Source of the DNA: a virus
Strand: one strand, 5' to 3'
DNA length: 39,194 bases
IMG/VR virus record: IMGVR_UViG_3300025671_000173
Location: 1-39,194 of that record
Positions 6,071-39,194 of the stretch are shown here, one piece after another. The position numbers were made by a program, and so were the translations under genes. Position 1 is the stretch's first letter. Each line of letters opens with the position of its first letter. The notes under the pieces are model-generated. The model made no database searches. It saw nothing but the letters and a program-made list of their open reading frames with translations, and had not been told where the DNA came from.

Positions 6071-9000
6071 TTATCCTTCTGGTAAATAATCCAAGTATTC
6101 TTGGTCATCTCTATATAACTTTAACATAACACCTGTCCATACAGCCCAAAAATCTGGATAATTTTCAATAATACCATTAGCTTCATTATACATCCACAAC
6201 CTAAGTGCTTTAGCTCTAACATCATCTGATGTTAACCACCAGTCTTTATTTCTTGTAGGTGAGTATTGTATAGACAATTGTTCAGCTTCTTCCCATTTAA
6301 CTAATGCTTCAGCAAATCCTTGTGCAGCAGCAAATTCCATAATTTTAGGATTAGTTGTCCAGTATTCTCTCATTTCATTAAATATATCCATTGTTGCTGG
6401 TGGAGATAATAAACCATATTCATCAGCTTGAAATCCAGGTAAAGCTTCTTTTAATTGTTCTCTATATAATCTTTTAATAACAGTTTTCTTAACTGATGGT
6501 ATTGTTGTTTTGTCTAAGTTCTTAGTAAATGTTTTATATCTAAAGAAACCAATTGTATCATTAACAGCTCTACGATATTGGTCAGGACTTAATAAATTCT
6601 TTTCACGAATAATATCATTATAATTTTTTTCTTCATAAGGATTGTCAATGTTTAAATAATAACCACTAACTTTTAGTGTACTAAAAATATCTGCGTTTTC
6701 TTTTTGAAATTGTTGTACTCTAACACTGTAAGGTTGTTTACCAGTTTCTGATTGTGTTCTAGGACTTAACAAATAAGGATGTTCTACTCCATATAATTCT
6801 AAAAATTCATTATATGTAGCTACATCATTACCTTCATTTTTTTCTTTAATACGTACATATTCTTCATACAATACAGCTTGACCCCATAAGTTTCCTTGTT
6901 TGTCATCAATAAAATATTCTGGTTGAAATCCTGTAGGACCAAAGAATTGATAAATAAATTGAAAACCAAACAAAGTTCCTGATTTAACTTTTGCATATTC
7001 TAAATATGCATTTTCTATTTCACCTTTATTTAATTCATTAACAGATAAACCTGGATACAATTTGTTAATATATTTATCTAACTTACCAGCTTTATATAAT
7101 CTTTCAGGTTCACCAGCAGATACACCCCATCTATACAAATCAATAGTAGCTTTAGCTCTCATACGTTCTGCTTCTGTACTTGCATCAGATATAACATCAA
7201 ACTCATCAGCACCAAGTAACCAAGCATTTAATTTTTTATATACAGGTGATATAGAAAATACATCAGTTAATTTTTCTGGTGGAGGAAACTCTCCAAATAA
7301 AGTTTTTTCTAAACTGTTAGCCCAACCATACTCTGCACCTAATTTAGTAGATGCAGTTTCAATTGGAGGTAAAACTTTATTTAAAGCAAAACCTACAAAT
7401 GGGTTAGGTCCAGGTACAAATCCTTGTCCTAACAAGTTAACACCTTGTACATATCCTCTAGGTGATATTTGTACTTGTTGTTCTCCTCCTGATAATTCAT
7501 CATCAAAAATTAAACTTGACATAAAACCACCAAATGGCATGACAAACATATCTTCTTGTGGGTCTTGTGGATTAGCTACAAAAAATCCATCATTAGAACT
7601 ACTACCTAAAGCATCTGCAGCACTGCCACCTCTAAAACCTACATGCCCTTTACGTAATACATATGGATTTTGTGCAAGTAACTTACCCCATGTTTGAAAT
7701 ACTTCAAACCACACTTCAGCAAATGGAAAAACATTTACTAACTTGTCAGATATAGTATGTCTTTGTTTTGTATCATACAATAATTCTTTTACACCAGCTA
7801 ATGCATAAGCTTTAGATTCTATATTCATAGCTTCGTAATCATCAATTTTTCCTGGTTTATACAATTTACTAGCACCTGTAAGTTCATCAATAATTTTTTT
7901 AGGAACTGCAGCATCTTTAGCTTCTTTAATAAATTGTTTTCTTAATCTTGGTGTAAAATCAGCAAATCTTTCACCAACATACATCCATCTAAATTGTTTA
8001 AATGTCGTAGACCTATTAAGAATACCAATAGGTTTTGTCATTAAATGGTCAAATACTGTTTGATAAAATATATCCATACCATCTTGAAACATTCCAAGAA
8101 AGTTTTTGTCAGTAGATTCATCAGCAAGATTTCTAGTAATTGTCATCATACCTGGGTCTAGTCCATCTTGTTTGTTGTAATATAACTTTAATTCATCTAG
8201 TACTTTTGATTTTTTAAATTTCTTTAACAAATTTTCTTCAGAACTAAAAAACTCAATTACATTTTTTTCATCAACACCATCAGTACCAAATTTAGCTAAT
8301 GTACCTTCACCAATCATTTTTCTAATATTTTGATTACCAGTATTAGTATTTAGTCTTAATTTATATTGATAAGTACCATCAGCTTGTTTAAATATATCTT
8401 TACCTTCAGATATTTGACCACCAGCACTAATACGTATTCTTGATTCTAAAAATTGTAAATGTTGGTCTAAAGTAACAGAACCATCTCTTAAAATTTCTGA
8501 CCATTTATTGCCACCGTATTTAATTAATTGTATTCTAGCTTCTCTACCTGCAGGAGATAATAACCATTCATTTAATTCTTTAGAGCCATAACCAAACTTA
8601 GCTACTTGTCTAGCAATAGGGTCATTTCTTAAATGTCTTAACTCTGCATACATTGATTCTGCTATTTGGTCTATTGTTAATTCAGATTTATCTTTTGCAA
8701 GATATTCTAAATATTTATTTTGTTTACGTCCTCTAGCATCAGCTATGTCATTAGGTCTAAATGTTTTTTGCATAGCTTCTATAACTTCTTCTTGCATTAA
8801 AAACTCTACAGCATCATTGTTTTGTTTAGCTTTTGTATATTTACCTAATGAAACTTTTTCTAACATAGCTCCAACTTTACTGTTTGGATTATGTGCAAAA
8901 ACCCATTGCAAATATTCATGTGGTTTGTTATAAAATCCTGATAAACCTTTAACAGCTATACGTGCTTGTTCTTCTAAAAACACACGTGTAAAAAATGCAA

Positions 9001-11794
9001 ATCTCATAAGTACTAATGGTTTAAATACATTTCTTGTATAAAAATTAGCTAAGTTAGTAAAGAAATTATTTTCTAATCTTTTAACAGATATAGCACCAGC
9101 TTCAAAAGGATTAGGTAAATCATCTGGGTTTTTAGCCCAAGGTGCATGATATTTTAACCATTGTTTAGTATCGTATGTGAAACTAGACCTAACATATACA
9201 CCCTCCCCTATTTCTTTATACGGTTTAAACATTCTTCCCATAGCTTTATCTAATAATCTATAATCCAGTAGGGGAGCAATGTTATCTTGCATTTCATCAA
9301 ATAAAGATGCAGTCATTGTTTGTACTACTTTTTTATTATTAAATATTGCTTCACCATCATCATTAATTTCATATCCATGAAAACCAGAACCTATGTTTGG
9401 AAGTATCTTTTTATTTTTACCTGTAGAATATATTTTCATTTTACTTTGACCTTCAAACATTTCTTTAGCAGCTTTAGCTACATATTCCCAGTTACCACCA
9501 CGTGCTGCAATTAATTGGACATCTCTTTGTGCTTGTGTATTAGCAAAACTTCTTAAAGCTTGTTTATCCATTGCATCAATAGAAGAAAATTCTTTTAATA
9601 TTTTTGATGCTTCTGTAGGGTCATATCCATTAATTTGTAAATGAGATGCAAGTTGTCTATAACCTACTTCAATATTACTTAAAGGTATTCCCATTTCAGG
9701 AACTACACCTAACATCTTTCTAAAGTAAGGATTGTATGTAGAGTTAAAGTTAGAACTAAAACCTAAATATCTTTCAAATTCAGGTAACTCTAATCCTTTT
9801 TCTACATCTACTTGTCTATATCTAGCTACGCTATCCATTTTATCTACTACTTCATCAACAGAATCTTCTACTCTTAATAATCTTGTAGGTTGTTTTCTAT
9901 AAAGAACTTCACGTACACTTCTAGTTTTTTCACCAGCCCAGCTACCAAATGTTCTATAAGCAGCATTAGGATTAATACCAGATTGGCGTAATGCTTTGTT
10001 AACTACTAATGAACCTGTCTTAGGTAACATTTTTCCAGGTAATGTATAAGGAATTAATTGTCCAGCTTCATCTTTAATTGAATATCCTGACTTACTAATT
10101 AAATCACCAAACATACTTTGTATTTTTGTCCAGTCAGTTTCTGTTGCTATTTCATCTCTAATTTGATATGGAAGATGTTTAGTAATTGGATTAGTTGCTA
10201 AATAAAATAAATCATCTTCTGTTGTAGCAGCTAACGATTTAAAAAAAGCTACATTAGTAGGCTGGTTTAATATTTCGTCAGATGTTAATTGAAAAAATCT
10301 TGGTACTCTACCAAATAATGTACTTTCTTTTTTAATCTTTTTTAAACTCTTTTTAACAGCACGTCTATCTTTAACATATTCTTTATTTTTAATAAAACGT
10401 CCAGCATCATCTTGATATTTAGCTAAGTTACCTGTACCTGTTAATCCATCAATTTCATCAGCTACAGTTTCTAAAATATCATCAGCCATAGCTCTAGGAT
10501 TTATTTTTATAGATTTACCTGTTTTTTTAATACGTCCCATTTGTACTAAGTCAAATGCTTGATTAGTTCCACGTAATCCACGTATTAAATTTTTAGCACC
10601 TTTAACACCTTTACCAGCAAATACTTCAGGTAAAATTTGATAACCAGCATCAGTTAATCCTGACAATACTTCAAATGCTTTTGTACCTGGTTCATAAAAT
10701 TCAGAAGCTGTTACTTTACCTGGTGAGTATTCCATAAGAATATTTTTATTAGCCCAATCTGGTCTGTAATAATCTTGTTCTGTTTGTCCAGCCCAAAAAT
10801 ATCTTTGTCTTGCTCTACCTGCATAAAAGTTTATTTTGTTTGGGTTATATGCAGATGTGTAATGTATTTCACCATTTTCATCAAATTGTTTAATTGGTTC
10901 ACCAATATGCTTGTAAATAAAATCACTAGCTTGTGTTGGTGTCATACCATAATTTTGTGTTAAATCTATGTAGTATGGTGTATTTTCAGCTTTAATACTT
11001 TCTAAAGTTATTTTTGTAGCTCTATCAAAGTTAAGTGGTTTACCTTGTATAACATTACGAAACATATTAGCTAATATTGGTTCTCCACCCATATCATGTG
11101 CTTCTTGTAACATATCAATAAATTTTCCTATATTACCTGCACCACCTAAATCTTTACCTAATCCTTCTACAGATGTATTACTTAAATCAATTTGCAACAT
11201 ACTTTGTGCTTTAGAAGGTGAATAACCATCTCTAAGTAATTTATCGTATGCACGTATATCTCTAAGATATGCTTGTGACCTACCAACTTTCATTGGTTGT
11301 CCAGGTGCTAATGCATTAACTGCACTAGATATAACAGACCATTTACCTGATGGACCTATTGTTTGAAATACAGCATCTAAAGCAGCAAATGCCCATACAC
11401 CGTATTGAACATCTCCTGGTTTAGCTCCACCTGGAAATAAACCTGCTGTTAACAAATCACCAATACTCATTTTCATATTATCTTCTGTATGTTCGTATTG
11501 ATATTGTTGTTGTAACTCTTGCCAAATTTTAGCTTCGTTATAAATACGATTATTTGATATTTCTTGTGCTATTACTTTATTAGCTTGAAAGTTAGGGTCT
11601 ACTCCTGCTAATGATAATGATGCAATTACATCTGCAGGCATTTCAGGAAATCTTTCTGCATAAGTTTGTAGGTCCTGTTGTATTAAATTGTTTTGTTCTA
11701 TTGCACCTTTGTATAAACCAACTTGTGCATCATCTCTATTAACACCACGTAAAATATCGTAGTATTGATTTCGGTCATATAAAATAAAACCCAT
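6071..11794 (-). CDS. Giant virion protein, 1907 aa (probable internal or ejected protein)
   Basis: The largest gene in the window, one uninterrupted frame of 5.7 kb with no frameshift. Mostly alpha-helical; around residues 930-970 is a stretch rich in aromatic and hydrophobic residues (FYTRNVFKPLVLMRFAFFTR, then EEQARIAVKGL), possibly membrane-interacting. I saw no convincing lysozyme, protease, ADP-ribosyltransferase or polymerase signature, but could not search. Position between portal-linked genes and scaffold, and large helical content, match ejected internal proteins of podoviruses or very large head proteins of actinobacterial phages. A tape measure is less likely since tape measures sit in tail modules. 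The start overlaps the upstream stop by one base. Confidence 0.7.
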   Translation of the reverse strand: MGFILYDRNQYYDILRGVNRDDAQVGLYKGAIEQNNLIQQDLQTYAERFPEMPADVIASLSLAGVDPNFQANKVIAQEISNNRIYNEAKIWQELQQQYQYEHTEDNMKMSIGDLLTAGLFPGGAKPGDVQYGVWAFAALDAVFQTIGPSGKWSVISSAVNALAPGQPMKVGRSQAYLRDIRAYDKLLRDGYSPSKAQSMLQIDLSNTSVEGLGKDLGGAGNIGKFIDMLQEAHDMGGEPILANMFRNVIQGKPLNFDRATKITLESIKAENTPYYIDLTQNYGMTPTQASDFIYKHIGEPIKQFDENGEIHYTSAYNPNKINFYAGRARQRYFWAGQTEQDYYRPDWANKNILMEYSPGKVTASEFYEPGTKAFEVLSGLTDAGYQILPEVFAGKGVKGAKNLIRGLRGTNQAFDLVQMGRIKKTGKSIKINPRAMADDILETVADEIDGLTGTGNLAKYQDDAGRFIKNKEYVKDRRAVKKSLKKIKKESTLFGRVPRFFQLTSDEILNQPTNVAFFKSLAATTEDDLFYLATNPITKHLPYQIRDEIATETDWTKIQSMFGDLISKSGYSIKDEAGQLIPYTLPGKMLPKTGSLVVNKALRQSGINPNAAYRTFGSWAGEKTRSVREVLYRKQPTRLLRVEDSVDEVVDKMDSVARYRQVDVEKGLELPEFERYLGFSSNFNSTYNPYFRKMLGVVPEMGIPLSNIEVGYRQLASHLQINGYDPTEASKILKEFSSIDAMDKQALRSFANTQAQRDVQLIAARGGNWEYVAKAAKEMFEGQSKMKIYSTGKNKKILPNIGSGFHGYEINDDGEAIFNNKKVVQTMTASLFDEMQDNIAPLLDYRLLDKAMGRMFKPYKEIGEGVYVRSSFTYDTKQWLKYHAPWAKNPDDLPNPFEAGAISVKRLENNFFTNLANFYTRNVFKPLVLMRFAFFTRVFLEEQARIAVKGLSGFYNKPHEYLQWVFAHNPNSKVGAMLEKVSLGKYTKAKQNNDAVEFLMQEEVIEAMQKTFRPNDIADARGRKQNKYLEYLAKDKSELTIDQIAESMYAELRHLRNDPIARQVAKFGYGSKELNEWLLSPAGREARIQLIKYGGNKWSEILRDGSVTLDQHLQFLESRIRISAGGQISEGKDIFKQADGTYQYKLRLNTNTGNQNIRKMIGEGTLAKFGTDGVDEKNVIEFFSSEENLLKKFKKSKVLDELKLYYNKQDGLDPGMMTITRNLADESTDKNFLGMFQDGMDIFYQTVFDHLMTKPIGILNRSTTFKQFRWMYVGERFADFTPRLRKQFIKEAKDAAVPKKIIDELTGASKLYKPGKIDDYEAMNIESKAYALAGVKELLYDTKQRHTISDKLVNVFPFAEVWFEVFQTWGKLLAQNPYVLRKGHVGFRGGSAADALGSSSNDGFFVANPQDPQEDMFVMPFGGFMSSLIFDDELSGGEQQVQISPRGYVQGVNLLGQGFVPGPNPFVGFALNKVLPPIETASTKLGAEYGWANSLEKTLFGEFPPPEKLTDVFSISPVYKKLNAWLLGADEFDVISDASTEAERMRAKATIDLYRWGVSAGEPERLYKAGKLDKYINKLYPGLSVNELNKGEIENAYLEYAKVKSGTLFGFQFIYQFFGPTGFQPEYFIDDKQGNLWGQAVLYEEYVRIKEKNEGNDVATYNEFLELYGVEHPYLLSPRTQSETGKQPYSVRVQQFQKENADIFSTLKVSGYYLNIDNPYEEKNYNDIIREKNLLSPDQYRRAVNDTIGFFRYKTFTKNLDKTTIPSVKKTVIKRLYREQLKEALPGFQADEYGLLSPPATMDIFNEMREYWTTNPKIMEFAAAQGFAEALVKWEEAEQLSIQYSPTRNKDWWLTSDDVRAKALRLWMYNEANGIIENYPDFWAVWTGVMLKLYRDDQEYLDYLPEG

Positions 11795-28169: not shown

Positions 28170-28496
28170 TTAGTTACCTAATTTATTGTAGAACTTATTC
28201 CATTTTTTAGCAGAATTATAATTTGATTGAGCTTTAACATAAGCTTTGTCTGCTTCTCTATATAAAGAATCTGAGTCTGCAGTAGTAAGTTTATCACCAT
28301 GTTGTCCTATAACTTTATAGTATTGTTTATAAGTACCTTCATATTGGTTACCTTTTTTTAAAGCAGCATCACGCATAGCTAGATGTTGTTTTTTTCTAGC
28401 TTTTAATTCTTTTTGACCAAGACCTTTATAACCTTGACCAACTAGATTATCTAGTGATGACATTTTTCTAGGTGTACCGTCTTTTTTACTAGGCAT
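28170..28496 (-). CDS. Basic helical protein, 108 aa (unknown)
   Basis: Highly basic (MPSKKDGTPRKMSSLDNLVG, then QKELKARKKQHLAMRDAALK) and helical; its C-terminal half repeats AYVKAQSNYNSAKKWNKFYN-type helices. Family not recognised. It may bind DNA or belong to the virion. It is the last gene of the rightmost leftward unit, touching the previous gene by one base (TAATG). No terminator with a U-run is seen between it and the converging HNH gene; only a weak AACTA/TAGTT hairpin spans the 10-nt gap. Confidence 0.62.
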   Translation of the reverse strand: MPSKKDGTPRKMSSLDNLVGQGYKGLGQKELKARKKQHLAMRDAALKKGNQYEGTYKQYYKVIGQHGDKLTTADSDSLYREADKAYVKAQSNYNSAKKWNKFYNKLGN

Positions 28497-28768
28497 TATC
28501 TGTTTAACTTTGTTCCATCATTATTACTATTACGGTCATTCCAAATTTTAATAACAACATTTTTTAAATCTTCTTTAGGCATAGCATTAGGTTTTCTATT
28601 AGAACCTGTTGAAGGATAATAAGGCATTGGTTCAGCTTGTGCTGGTGGTTTAGGTCTATTTGGTTTAGGTCCAGGTTTAGGTAAAGGTTTACGTGGTTGT
28701 GTTTTAGGACGAGTTTTTTTAACTGTAGATTTTCCAGCACCTGTAATATGTTTAGTTGATTTAGCCAT
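28496..28768 (-). CDS. Proline/lysine-rich protein, 90 aa, with shared C-terminal motif
   Basis: A largely disordered protein: basic N-terminus (KSTVKKTRPKTQPRKPLPKP), then PKPNRPKPPAQAEP, and a short C-terminal motif KIWNDRNSNNDGTKLN. The next upstream gene ends with the near-identical KVWDDRNVKNNGTKLN, so the two proteins share a C-terminal tag. This may be a targeting or virion-binding signal. Family not recognised. One-base overlaps on both sides. Confidence 0.6.
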   Translation of the reverse strand: MAKSTKHITGAGKSTVKKTRPKTQPRKPLPKPGPKPNRPKPPAQAEPMPYYPSTGSNRKPNAMPKEDLKNVVIKIWNDRNSNNDGTKLNR

Positions 28769-29028
28769 TATGGATTTAATTTTGTTCCATTATTTTTTAC
28801 GTTTCTATCATCCCATACTTTTAAAGTTGGATTATCCATTTTAACTTTGTTAGGATTAGGTATATCAATACCAGTAGTAATCTTTAAAACACCTTTAGCA
28901 AATGTTGTTATAGGATTATCAGCACCACCTGGTAACCAACCTTTATTATATTTTTTATCCCAATCATAATAGGTCATACGTTTTGTTTTACCTTTTCCAC
29001 CACCTTCAATTCTTGGTACATTAGGCAT
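28768..29028 (-). CDS. Small basic protein, 86 aa, with shared C-terminal motif
   Basis: Product begins MPNVPRIEGGGKGKTKRMTY, contains a Trp/Gly segment (WDKKYNKGWLPGGADNP), and ends KVWDDRNVKNNGTKLN, the motif shared with the downstream neighbour. Otherwise the two differ, so the tail seems modular. Function unknown. It begins 1 nt after the holin gene stop (29030) and overlaps the next gene by one base. Confidence 0.6.
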   Translation of the reverse strand: MPNVPRIEGGGKGKTKRMTYYDWDKKYNKGWLPGGADNPITTFAKGVLKITTGIDIPNPNKVKMDNPTLKVWDDRNVKNNGTKLNP

Positions 29029-29029
29029 A

Positions 29030-29239
29030 TTATTTACTCACTTTCTTATCTACGACTGCTAATTGTTTTTTAGCAAATTCTTTTATTACTACTAACGAAG
29101 CAGAGGCACCTGATATTGCAGCAAGTTGTACTGTGTTAATATCAACACCTACTAATGGAGCAACTGTTAACGCACCAAGGAATGCTTGAACAAATGTCCA
29201 TAATGTTTTTTCTAATACTAATTTATATTCGTTACTCAT
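29030..29239 (-). CDS. Holin (two transmembrane helices)
   Basis: A 69-aa protein with two hydrophobic segments, about 12-32 (TLWTFVQAFLGALTVAPLVG) and 37-58 (TVQLAAISGASASLVVIKEF), a short polar N-terminus and a Lys-rich C-terminus (KKQLAVVDKKVSK). Size, topology and charged tail fit a class II holin, which forms membrane lesions to release the endolysin at lysis. It is joined to the 636-aa gene by a one-base overlap (TAATG). The DUF5675 gene lies one gene away. Confidence 0.82.
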   Translation of the reverse strand: MSNEYKLVLEKTLWTFVQAFLGALTVAPLVGVDINTVQLAAISGASASLVVIKEFAKKQLAVVDKKVSK

Positions 29240-31149
29240 TAGTAACCTCCACTTCTACGTCCTGGAAAAAACTGTTCTAAGAATTTATCTGCAGAACCTT
29301 TTGTCATCATTGGTATACTTAACATATTAGTCTTTTTCATTACAGATTGTGCAGCTTTTACAGCTTTACTTGCAGCAATAGCAGCAGCTACTTCATCCAA
29401 ACCTCTAGCTAAACCTTTTTGAAATGCTTTTTGATAATTAATATCTGTTTCCAAAACTGCTTTAGGTAAATCAGTTGGTTTAGTATTTTTAGAACCAGCA
29501 ACTACATTACCAGCTCCATATTTAGTTTTAAAAACTGCTCGTGACCTATCACCAGAACCAACACCTGGTTGTGGTTTAGGTTCACCAAAACTTTCATTTA
29601 TATCAGATTGACTAATACCTTCTGGTAACATATTAGGGTCTGTTAATGTAACTTTTTTACCTAGTACATTTTCCCACCATCCAAGACCTGTTTTTCCAGA
29701 ACTTAAGTTTTGATTTTTCATTGTAGTTTGATTAAAAAAATCACCTTCTCCTTTTGTTAAATAATCAAGTTTGTCATATTCTATAGTTGAAGGTTTAGCT
29801 GTTGTAGAATATCTAGGGTTAGGTTGTGATGAAACACTATATGTTTTATTAGCTGTTCCTGGTTCTATAGGTAATCCTTTACCTTCTCCTAATCTTAAAC
29901 TTGTATCTTTAATACCAGCTGAATATCTTTCAGATTTTACTATATCTAATCTTGGTGCATTATCCATAATTATTGCTTTACCTTTTGCTGAATTGTAATA
30001 ATCTACTTTATATTTTGTTACAAGTTTATCTATTGTATAATCTCTTGCATTTAAATTAGCTTTAGCTTTATTCATTATTTGTTCTGAAATAGGTTTTTTA
30101 GATTTAGGACTAGGTTTAAAATTATCAGATACTTGAGCAATTTCTTTTTGTAAAGCATTGTTATAATTTTTTTCTGCTACTTTTCTAAATTCTTTTGTTA
30201 TACCAAATTCTTCTAAATCTTTATCAAATCTACCAAAAGTACCTTGACCCTTAAATATATCTCCAGTTTCTTTAGTACCTTTAGGTACTTGATTTATTGC
30301 TGCAGATATATCTTGTCTTGGTCTAGCTACATCAGTATCAAATTTACCAGTATATTTAATTGAATCTTTTGAACGTTTAGAAGGTTTTTTCATAAGACCT
30401 TCTTCATTTATAGCAAGTTCTCTATCTACGGCATCTAGTCCTTGACCTTGAGTAGCTCTGTCATAATTAATTTCTCTAGCAGTTTGTTCATATGAAGTAC
30501 CCATTTGCATTTTAGATATTTCAATATCTGATTCTAAATCTACAATAATTTCGTTATAGTATTCTCTATAAGTTTTAGGAGTACCATCTTCTTTAAAAAA
30601 TTCTTGATTAGTAACAAGTTTATCTCCAGTTAAACCTTTACGTTTTGCTTTTTTCATTTCATATTCGAAATCAATATCAGCAGATTTTTTTCTAATAGCA
30701 TCTACTTGAGGGTCACCTGTAGGTATAAATTTTTTAGGACCTTTAGATACTGTCATTGGTTCATCAACTAAACTAGCGTCTACACTACTAGCAGCTTTTT
30801 TTACAGCATCTAATTCTTGTTGTAATGCAGCAACTGATTTAGATTGTTCTGTTTCAAAAGGAACCATATCAAAATCACCAACATCACCAAACTGTCTTAA
30901 TGAATCAGGATTTTGTCCACCTGTTGTTACTGAACTAGAAAATCTTTCATCAATAAAAGTTTGAGCATCATAATCTAATAATCTATCTAATTGTCTTTGA
31001 CGTTCAGCACTAGATGATTGTGCTGGATTATAATCCTCAGCACCTTCGCCCATATAAGGACCTTCTTCGTAACCTTCAGCTAATCCAGTAACATCATCAT
31101 CTCCGCTAAATGCAGAGCCTTTTTTAAATGGTTGTCCAATTTTTGGCAT
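29239..31149 (-). CDS. Large charged protein, 636 aa (unknown)
   Basis: A soluble, strongly charged protein, mostly helical or disordered. N-terminus acidic with Gly (GDDDVTGLAEGYEEGPYMGE), a middle rich in Lys-Asp/Glu, and a C-terminal helix (VAAAIAASKAVKAAQSVMKK) followed by FFPGRRSGGY. No signal peptide, no enzymatic motif seen. It sits between DUF5675 and the holin. It could be an ejected or DNA-associated virion protein; it is also reminiscent of disordered phage proteins with scaffold-like composition. Not recognised. Confidence 0.6.
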   Translation of the reverse strand: MPKIGQPFKKGSAFSGDDDVTGLAEGYEEGPYMGEGAEDYNPAQSSSAERQRQLDRLLDYDAQTFIDERFSSSVTTGGQNPDSLRQFGDVGDFDMVPFETEQSKSVAALQQELDAVKKAASSVDASLVDEPMTVSKGPKKFIPTGDPQVDAIRKKSADIDFEYEMKKAKRKGLTGDKLVTNQEFFKEDGTPKTYREYYNEIIVDLESDIEISKMQMGTSYEQTAREINYDRATQGQGLDAVDRELAINEEGLMKKPSKRSKDSIKYTGKFDTDVARPRQDISAAINQVPKGTKETGDIFKGQGTFGRFDKDLEEFGITKEFRKVAEKNYNNALQKEIAQVSDNFKPSPKSKKPISEQIMNKAKANLNARDYTIDKLVTKYKVDYYNSAKGKAIIMDNAPRLDIVKSERYSAGIKDTSLRLGEGKGLPIEPGTANKTYSVSSQPNPRYSTTAKPSTIEYDKLDYLTKGEGDFFNQTTMKNQNLSSGKTGLGWWENVLGKKVTLTDPNMLPEGISQSDINESFGEPKPQPGVGSGDRSRAVFKTKYGAGNVVAGSKNTKPTDLPKAVLETDINYQKAFQKGLARGLDEVAAAIAASKAVKAAQSVMKKTNMLSIPMMTKGSADKFLEQFFPGRRSGGY

Positions 31150-37123: not shown

Positions 37124-39109
37124 TTATGCTCCAAATCTCATAATACCATAAGCTGCAATACCTACTGTGTTTACAGATGTTACATCTTCTAGCGATGGTT
37201 GTCTAGTTCCACGCACTGTAATGATAGCATAATGCGTATCACTTCCAACAACTTCATTAGATTGTATTGGATAACTTATTTGCTCTACAACACCACGTAT
37301 AATTTCAGTAGGTTCAAATAACTCTAATGTTACAGATGTACCTTCTTTATCTCTTAATGCTCTATATAATGCTTCTCCTAAACCTTTAACACGTATCGGT
37401 TTTCTACCAGGTCTTTCTACTCTATCAGATATATTGATAGGTATTTGTGCAACTACAAGTTCTGGTCTTGCTAATGCACGAAACTGTACAGATTTGACTT
37501 CAGGAGTTGACACATTATTTGTACTTTTAAGAACTATTTTACCAACAATATACCTTGACACTTCTGCTATTTGTTTTTCTACATCTCCAGTACCAGATAT
37601 TTGTGTTAATGCTGAAACAAATGATGAATCATTAGGATTATTTAATGCTTCAAATTTAGTTGAGTATAATAATTCTACTTCTGTATTTGCAGGCATATTT
37701 ACTGTAGATATTTCTGCACCAACAAACTGTTTACTTTCTGCAGTAAAAAAATCTGCAGCAGATGTTATTAAATAACCTTCAGATTCATATGTAGATTGTT
37801 CTTTATATACGTCAGAACCCATACTTACCATTACAAACATTCCACCTGTTTGTGTAATTCCAGATATTGGACCTGTTCCTGTTGTTTGCAAATCTCTAGC
37901 CAAACCACCTGTTGGTAAATAGTATCGCCACAAATTTGCTTCGTTAGTTCCTTCTTGTACACCTATGTAAACACTATCTCTTGATGTAAACATAGATGTA
38001 GGTGTTGTATTTATACTATCTTCAACCCATTCTTTTACTAACTGTCTGTTAGCAAGTACATATAAATCATCAGCTGCTACAAGTTCTGCTCTGTACAAAC
38101 GTCCTATATTTCTAGTATTTTCTTTTGTACCAAAAAATATTATTCCTTCAGATGCTGCAAGAGAATGTACTTCTTCAAAAGGTATAGTTGATTGTCCTTG
38201 ATTAACAAATGTTCCACTAGATAATTTAAAAGAATATATATTACCATCAGTGCTTGCAGCTAATACTGCAGCTCCTGCATCAACAATGTCTGTTATTCTA
38301 TGTGTAGGTTCTACTTCAATTATTGCATCAGCAACAGCTAAATTAGATGCTGACCAACTATCAAAAGGATTAATATCCCAAACATGTTCTGCAGTGCCAT
38401 CATTTCCTGTAATCCATAATGTATTTTTTACAAACCATATACCTGTTAATCCACCATTACTAGTTTGAGAATTATTTAATTCAGTCCAAGTACTACCGTT
38501 ATAATATATTAACTGTGAACTTGATGTTCCATCTTTGGTAGTAAGATATAAACTATTTCCAAATGTAGCTATTCCAGTAAAATTATGTGTAGCACCATTA
38601 ACTGTATTATTAATTTCTGTCCAACTTTCAGCATCTGCAGAATACCATACGCTAGTACCATCTGTTACCCAAATAGTTCCATTTGTAGTTTGTGCTAAAT
38701 AATTATTATCACTAACAAAAGATGTACTAGCTCCTCTAACATTCATGTCAGCAGTTTGATGTAATAAATGTATATTGTAAGCTGTTTCATCATCTCCGTG
38801 AAATACATCAATACCTTTGCTATCCCAAAATCTATTTACATCATCTGGTTTACCATCACTTCTATGTGCTGTATCTAATCCTTGACCTGCATCAAATTTA
38901 TTTCTTGAATATATACGACCTAAGTTAGAAGTAAAATCTTCAGGATTTTGTTTAACATTAACTTGTTGTCCTGCTTGTACGTCAGATGATTGTATAGTCA
39001 TTTCACGATTAGGACCTACAGCAGTACGTAAATAAATATTATCTAATTGTAAATCATAACCATATCTTTTTGGGTTACGAATATTTGATGTAGTAGCTAC
39101 TCTAGGCAT
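37124..39109 (-). CDS. Tail protein with beta-propeller-like repeats, 661 aa
   Basis: After an N-terminal virion-type part (about 1-105), residues 120-430 contain repeated strands of the type TIWVTDGTSVWYSADAESWT, SLYLTTKDGTSSSQLIYYNG, IWFVKNTLWITGNDGTAEHV and IIFFGTKENTRNIGRLYRAE, a Kelch/BNR-like propeller. The final 180 residues form another beta-rich domain (VELLYSTKFEALNNPNDSSF onward). Likely a tail hub, nozzle or spike base that mediates host contact. It overlaps the upstream partial gene by one base. Confidence 0.72.
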   Translation of the reverse strand: MPRVATTSNIRNPKRYGYDLQLDNIYLRTAVGPNREMTIQSSDVQAGQQVNVKQNPEDFTSNLGRIYSRNKFDAGQGLDTAHRSDGKPDDVNRFWDSKGIDVFHGDDETAYNIHLLHQTADMNVRGASTSFVSDNNYLAQTTNGTIWVTDGTSVWYSADAESWTEINNTVNGATHNFTGIATFGNSLYLTTKDGTSSSQLIYYNGSTWTELNNSQTSNGGLTGIWFVKNTLWITGNDGTAEHVWDINPFDSWSASNLAVADAIIEVEPTHRITDIVDAGAAVLAASTDGNIYSFKLSSGTFVNQGQSTIPFEEVHSLAASEGIIFFGTKENTRNIGRLYRAELVAADDLYVLANRQLVKEWVEDSINTTPTSMFTSRDSVYIGVQEGTNEANLWRYYLPTGGLARDLQTTGTGPISGITQTGGMFVMVSMGSDVYKEQSTYESEGYLITSAADFFTAESKQFVGAEISTVNMPANTEVELLYSTKFEALNNPNDSSFVSALTQISGTGDVEKQIAEVSRYIVGKIVLKSTNNVSTPEVKSVQFRALARPELVVAQIPINISDRVERPGRKPIRVKGLGEALYRALRDKEGTSVTLELFEPTEIIRGVVEQISYPIQSNEVVGSDTHYAIITVRGTRQPSLEDVTSVNTVGIAAYGIMRFGA

Positions 39110-39194
39110 TAGGTAGGATACAATATACTATTTAACTGAACTGGTTCTGGATATTTAGACCTTAAATTACTTCTAGCTTGTTGTATTAATAACT
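39109..39194 (-). CDS. Tail-module gene, C-terminal 27 codons (partial)
   Basis: Visible end of a leftward gene that enters from the right edge: VLIQQARSNLRSKYPEPVQL then NSILYPT, followed by a TAATG junction with the 661-aa tail gene. The helical, basic segment is typical of tail or connector proteins, but too little is present to identify it. Confidence 0.6.
   Translation of the reverse strand, partial: LLIQQARSNLRSKYPEPVQLNSILYPT

Follow-up and report, generated by a model that had tools for sequence, protein, structure and literature searches.

The window analysed is a single IMG/VR virus record of 39,194 bases, in which two adjacent small genes encode proteins with a common C-terminal tag. 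The holin-like gene (29030..29239, minus strand; phrog_443, E=8e-6) lies upstream of the tag locus and is its conserved neighbour. The first gene after it (28768..29028, minus strand) encodes an 86-aa carrier with the body MPNVPRIEGGGKG...NPTL, and its tag (28771..28821, minus strand) reads KVWDDRNVKNNGTKLNP up to the stop codon. This gene overlaps the next one as TAATG; the latter (28496..28768, minus strand) encodes a 90-aa carrier in which an unrelated Pro/Lys-rich body with a PYYPSTGSNRKPNAM module precedes the tag KIWNDRNSNNDGTKLNR (28499..28549, minus strand), which likewise ends at the stop codon. The last gene of the late operon follows (28170..28496, minus strand) and encodes the 108-aa GLG protein, with the motif VGxGYxGLGxxELxxRxKQHxAL. 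Upstream of the holin-like gene lie the gene for a 636-aa variable protein (29239..31149, minus strand) and the DUF5675 core gene (PF18925; 31151..31756, minus strand), which was used as the tag-independent anchor of the locus. The 636-aa protein has a weak Pfam match to Colicin_D (E=0.007, below the cutoff). The gene at this position encodes about 400-840 aa in relatives, some of which have two genes in its place.

Aligned at their stop codons, the two carriers agree at 11 of their final 17 residues. The next-best pair among all pairs of the 45 window proteins has 6 identical end residues, and 2,000 shuffles of the residues gave a maximum of 8 over all pairs, which rules out a chance likeness. 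Both genes are on the minus strand, at the place given in the original prediction. The protein ends quoted there omitted the last, differing residue (P/R). The statement that the proteins differ elsewhere was right for the bodies, which are unrelated, and missed a loose N-terminal motif common to both (PNVPRIEGGGKG / AKSTKHITGAGK), which many relatives also have. At the DNA level 35 of 51 nucleotides of the two tag copies are identical, with different codons at the conserved D, R, N, K and N; because codons differ at five conserved residues, the copies are not a fresh DNA duplication. The different synonymous codons and the unrelated bodies together rule out recent duplication of the two genes. 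An AlphaFold model of the 86-aa protein gave no confident fold (mean pLDDT 58.8, pTM 0.24).

To determine the extent of the tag, 2.9 million viral contigs were scanned with degenerate DNA patterns; 51 and 85 stretches matched and, with looser patterns, 102. The tag comprises 14 residues, W-x-D-R-N-x-x-N-x-G-T-K-L-N, with the looser form W-x-D-R-N-x2-N-x-[G/x]-[T/S]-K-L. The original prediction had suggested a search of related phages for the motif at other C-termini; it is present on no fewer than 86 distinct full-length carriers, which are 27-222 aa long (median about 88 aa) and bear 57 distinct tags. In 67 of the 86, exactly two residues separate the tag Leu and the stop, and in some carriers the tag lies further in, with 16 or more residues between it and the stop. 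W, D, R, N, N, K and L do not vary across the set, several of these positions being fixed by the scans themselves, for which reason loci collected independently of the tag are the fairer test. All true matches belong to one uncultivated podovirus-like group known only from metagenomes, and the tag sites lie either next to the holin of the group or between p268 and a 661-aa protein. A further 17 loci from the last scan were examined, and every one was in the same phage group and at one of these two sites. The loci examined earlier were placed likewise, except three pattern matches outside the group (L071, L087, L096), which were rejected as chance. Some phages have two or three carriers. Each of the 13 group genomes compared has at least one, a count that is not independent because the genomes were chosen by their tag matches. 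Four carriers of 27 aa consist of little more than the tag, and one of these (MPAPKTKTNVPAWQDRNVKNRGTKLNK) is the only carrier found in its genome (G013). A resemblance of DRNxxNxG to a calcium loop was dropped, as Q, R, I and M occur at the positions in between.

A tag-independent set of 80 loci was fetched through the DUF5675 gene alone. The order in these loci is fixed: DUF5675, variable protein(s), holin, tag carrier(s) and GLG protein, commonly with start/stop overlap between the holin and the following carrier. The tag is present after the holin in 52 of the 58 loci with at least 1.2 kb of sequence after the holin, and absent from this position in six. One of the six (L145) belongs to a genome (G012) in which a 46-aa carrier lies between p268 and the 661-aa gene; for another (L133; record G033, 42.7 kb) no tag carrier was found anywhere in the record. 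In L108, L110, L113 and L136 the GLG protein bears the tag instead. Outside its motif the GLG protein is as variable as the tag bodies, and it sometimes bears the N-terminal modules of the carriers. Five loci (L108, L110, L117, L135, L145) have two variable genes before the holin and, right after it, an 81-83-aa MPGHYHNKHE...KIDERNVY protein with conserved ends of its own. Two isolate phages with distant DUF5675 relatives have no similar locus.

The bodies in front of the tag fall into about 19 classes without detectable similarity (first 18 residues trimmed, E<1e-3). Median pairwise identity is 81% for DUF5675, 72% for the holin, 71% for the tag, 24% for the bodies and 23% for the GLG proteins; the value for the bodies is background. 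Among 45 pairs of loci with DUF5675 proteins at least 97% identical, 16 have bodies less than 40% identical. In one pair (L154/L155) DUF5675 is 99.5% and the body 21% identical, and the DNA is at background upstream of the tag and approximately 93% identical from the tag on. In another (L122/L143), the tags agree at 44 of 45 nucleotides, and the DNA on either side of them is at background. The same peptide has therefore been transferred between unrelated bodies; homologues without the motif had been named as evidence against a signal, and the tag is instead retained where everything else in the protein has changed. The carriers are built as mosaics from short modules (I-x-G-x-G-K-G near the N-terminus, RGD[TM]HAL[DE], PYYPxTGSN, GVYxKLDxxDxKAY). 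Some GLG proteins begin with such modules too, and among the carriers only a subset has the N-terminal I-x-G-x-G-K motif. The bodies are basic, with a median pI of 10.0 and 88% above 9.

Conservation of the tag acts on the peptide. Identical tag residues use identical codons in 71.5% of cases in 1202 tag pairs with unrelated bodies, which are not independent pairs, and the expected same-codon rate for the tag is 70.7% from DUF5675 and 63.4% from the holin. As codon identity in the tag is not above that of the core gene, selection is on the peptide, and there is no sign of an extra constraint at the DNA level.

The second tag gene, present in some genomes, is located in the head-tail region, after the major capsid protein (MCP), p110 and p268 and before a probable tail nozzle. 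This 46-aa gene fits between the p268 and 661-aa genes, which otherwise overlap directly. In the window the gene for the 661-aa protein lies at 37124..39109 on the minus strand. The best PDB matches of its model include the podophage tail proteins of Pan3, Sf6 (gp8), Pam1 and P22 (E 4e-10 to 5e-8); a tail nozzle is likely, and not certain because the model is of low confidence (pLDDT 46) and the TM-scores are at most 0.41. The capsid protein of the group matches SU10_MCP (PF17236, 6.3e-40) and a PHROG major head protein (1.3e-27). Full-length terminases of the tagged phages are 73-94% identical to that of the window, and the best-ranked isolates stay under about 27% identity to the window TerL, so that the collection searched holds no close isolate of the group. 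A 1907-aa late protein (6071-11794) is conserved in the group and has no match in PHROGs, Pfam or the isolate phages. The window record starts inside the capsid gene (1-219; other end 39109-39194) and does not contain the p110 and p268 of its relatives; it is therefore nearly complete and not closed, and a tag gene in the head region of the window phage is possible.

The tag is not described in the family libraries or literature searched. PHROGs and Pfam assign the neighbours of the tag to known families (holin phrog_443, DUF5675, SU10-type MCP), whereas none of the 26 tag carriers scanned matches any family in either library, and there is no credible match in the PDB. Among isolate phages, neither the 86-aa nor the 90-aa protein has a match above noise, the 5-kb DNA of the locus is unmatched, and so is the tag peptide, a short query of low sensitivity. 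Bacterial genomes gave three matches only, in Frankia, which do not read as the tag. No relevant paper with the motif, or with a similar C-terminal signal, was found in the literature.

Since the peptide is kept while its carrier is replaced, the tag must be read by a conserved partner. The late expression, the copy in the head region and the basic, soluble bodies favour a partner in the virion. The best explanation, to which we give slightly less than even confidence, is that the tag is a C-terminal docking motif that loads exchangeable cargo into the virion. Its conserved binding partner would be available late in infection and is most likely part of the head, portal or tail; any protein that precedes the tag in the fusion would thereby be loaded into the particle and delivered from it with the DNA. 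The bodies would then be an interchangeable repertoire of small basic cargo, which phages exchange with one another through recombination at the tag and which probably acts in host take-over or anti-defence. The original suggestion of a modular sorting or interaction signal is well supported by the 86 carriers, the approximately 19 body classes, the conservation of the peptide and the exchange boundaries at the tag; its capsid-specific part is no more than plausible, with the late operon, the head-tail tag gene, the basic bodies and the T4 precedent in its favour. A wider version, a group-wide C-terminal loading code in which one portable 14-residue tag and other swappable modules load constantly exchanged small basic effectors, may hold and is put forward with more reserve.

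Alternatively, the tag itself may be the functional peptide, such as a cement, a plug, a tail-tip element or a blocker of one host target, with the bodies as optional decoration or protection. The carriers that approach a bare tag would be surprising if the tag served only to label cargo and had no function itself, and the 27-aa protein that is the sole carrier found in its genome points this way, as do the 46-aa carrier, whose start and stop are fitted into a translationally overlapping gene pair next to the probable nozzle, and the better conservation of the tag than of any body. We consider this rather unlikely, as it leaves unexplained why the bodies are kept, basic and rapidly exchanged, and why some phages have two or three carriers.

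Binding to a conserved host protein (a chaperone, protease adaptor or polymerase), by which the bodies would be brought to a host machine or protected from it, would suit a short, near-terminal sequence with its invariant residues, which resembles a linear motif, and the recurrence of other short modules in the carriers and the neighbouring GLG protein. It is nevertheless distinctly unlikely: neither the late-operon nor the head-region position calls for a host partner, and apart from the chance matches in Frankia the search of bacterial genomes did not find the tag.

The position of the main locus, directly after the holin in nearly all tag-bearing loci of the tag-independent set and often with overlapping start and stop, also fits a role in lysis, in which the tag would bind the holin, DUF5675 or another lysis protein and tune lysis, and the bodies would differ with the host envelope. 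The second locus lies far from the holin, and the holins found in tagged phages differ from one another in both length and sequence. A membrane segment (a 19-residue window of mean hydropathy above 1.6), as expected of a spanin or other membrane lysis protein, is absent from all 78 carriers, which also speaks against an adaptor of this kind, an improbable reading. Least credible, and largely refuted by the codon test, is a DNA-level element that happens to be translated (a recombination site, terminator, packaging site or translational-coupling signal): the body exchange boundaries do fall at the tag, but its codon choice is as free as that of the core gene (0.715 vs 0.707), codons differ between the two copies in the window, and the tag is not confined to the vicinity of the stop.

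Loading of cargo through the tag would have a precedent in phage T4. The internal proteins of T4 are small and basic (PMC9026906), and Ip1-3, which have only an N-terminal leader in common, are packaged into the capsid through that leader, are injected, and differ in the GmrSD enzymes that they inhibit (PMC12373910). Like IPI, IPII and IPIII with their capsid targeting sequence (CTS), the tag carriers are small, basic and hypervariable, have unrelated bodies with one short shared terminal sequence, and are encoded at more than one locus. Unlike the CTS, which is N-terminal, about 10 residues long and cleaved by the prohead protease, the tag is C-terminal and about 14 residues long, and its carriers occur in podovirus-like phages of approximately 40 kb that are known here from sequence alone. 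Of the T4 features compared, unrelated bodies with one terminal sequence and small basic proteins were found, and the N-terminal position was not; no sequence relation to known internal proteins was detected in Pfam, PHROGs or PDB. Among the annotated genes of the window, none is identified as a protease. The tag system probably works like the T4 internal-protein system without being a member of it, and is not filed as one because there is no family match and the terminal position differs.

In phage T7, the ejection proteins gp14-16 are carried in the head and injected with the DNA. The ejection proteins of P22 and T7 are a fixed set of conduit-forming proteins that are not known to share a short tag. 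For P22, PMC8402733 describes gp7, gp16 and gp20 as carried in the podovirus head and injected with the DNA. The tag carriers would resemble these proteins in being head-carried and injected, and differ from them in being small, variable and tag-bearing.

If the tag loads virions, sequence alone would mark the injected cargo of a widespread group of uncultivated phages, new anti-defence proteins would be likely to be found among the carriers, and a short C-terminal tag would be usable for loading proteins into particles. Should the wider loading code hold as well, new effectors could be found by tag search alone. Even with a partner of another kind, an unchanged peptide on ever-replaced carriers still points to one conserved binding site. 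If virion loading is correct, the phage group would possess an independent parallel to the internal-protein locus of T4.
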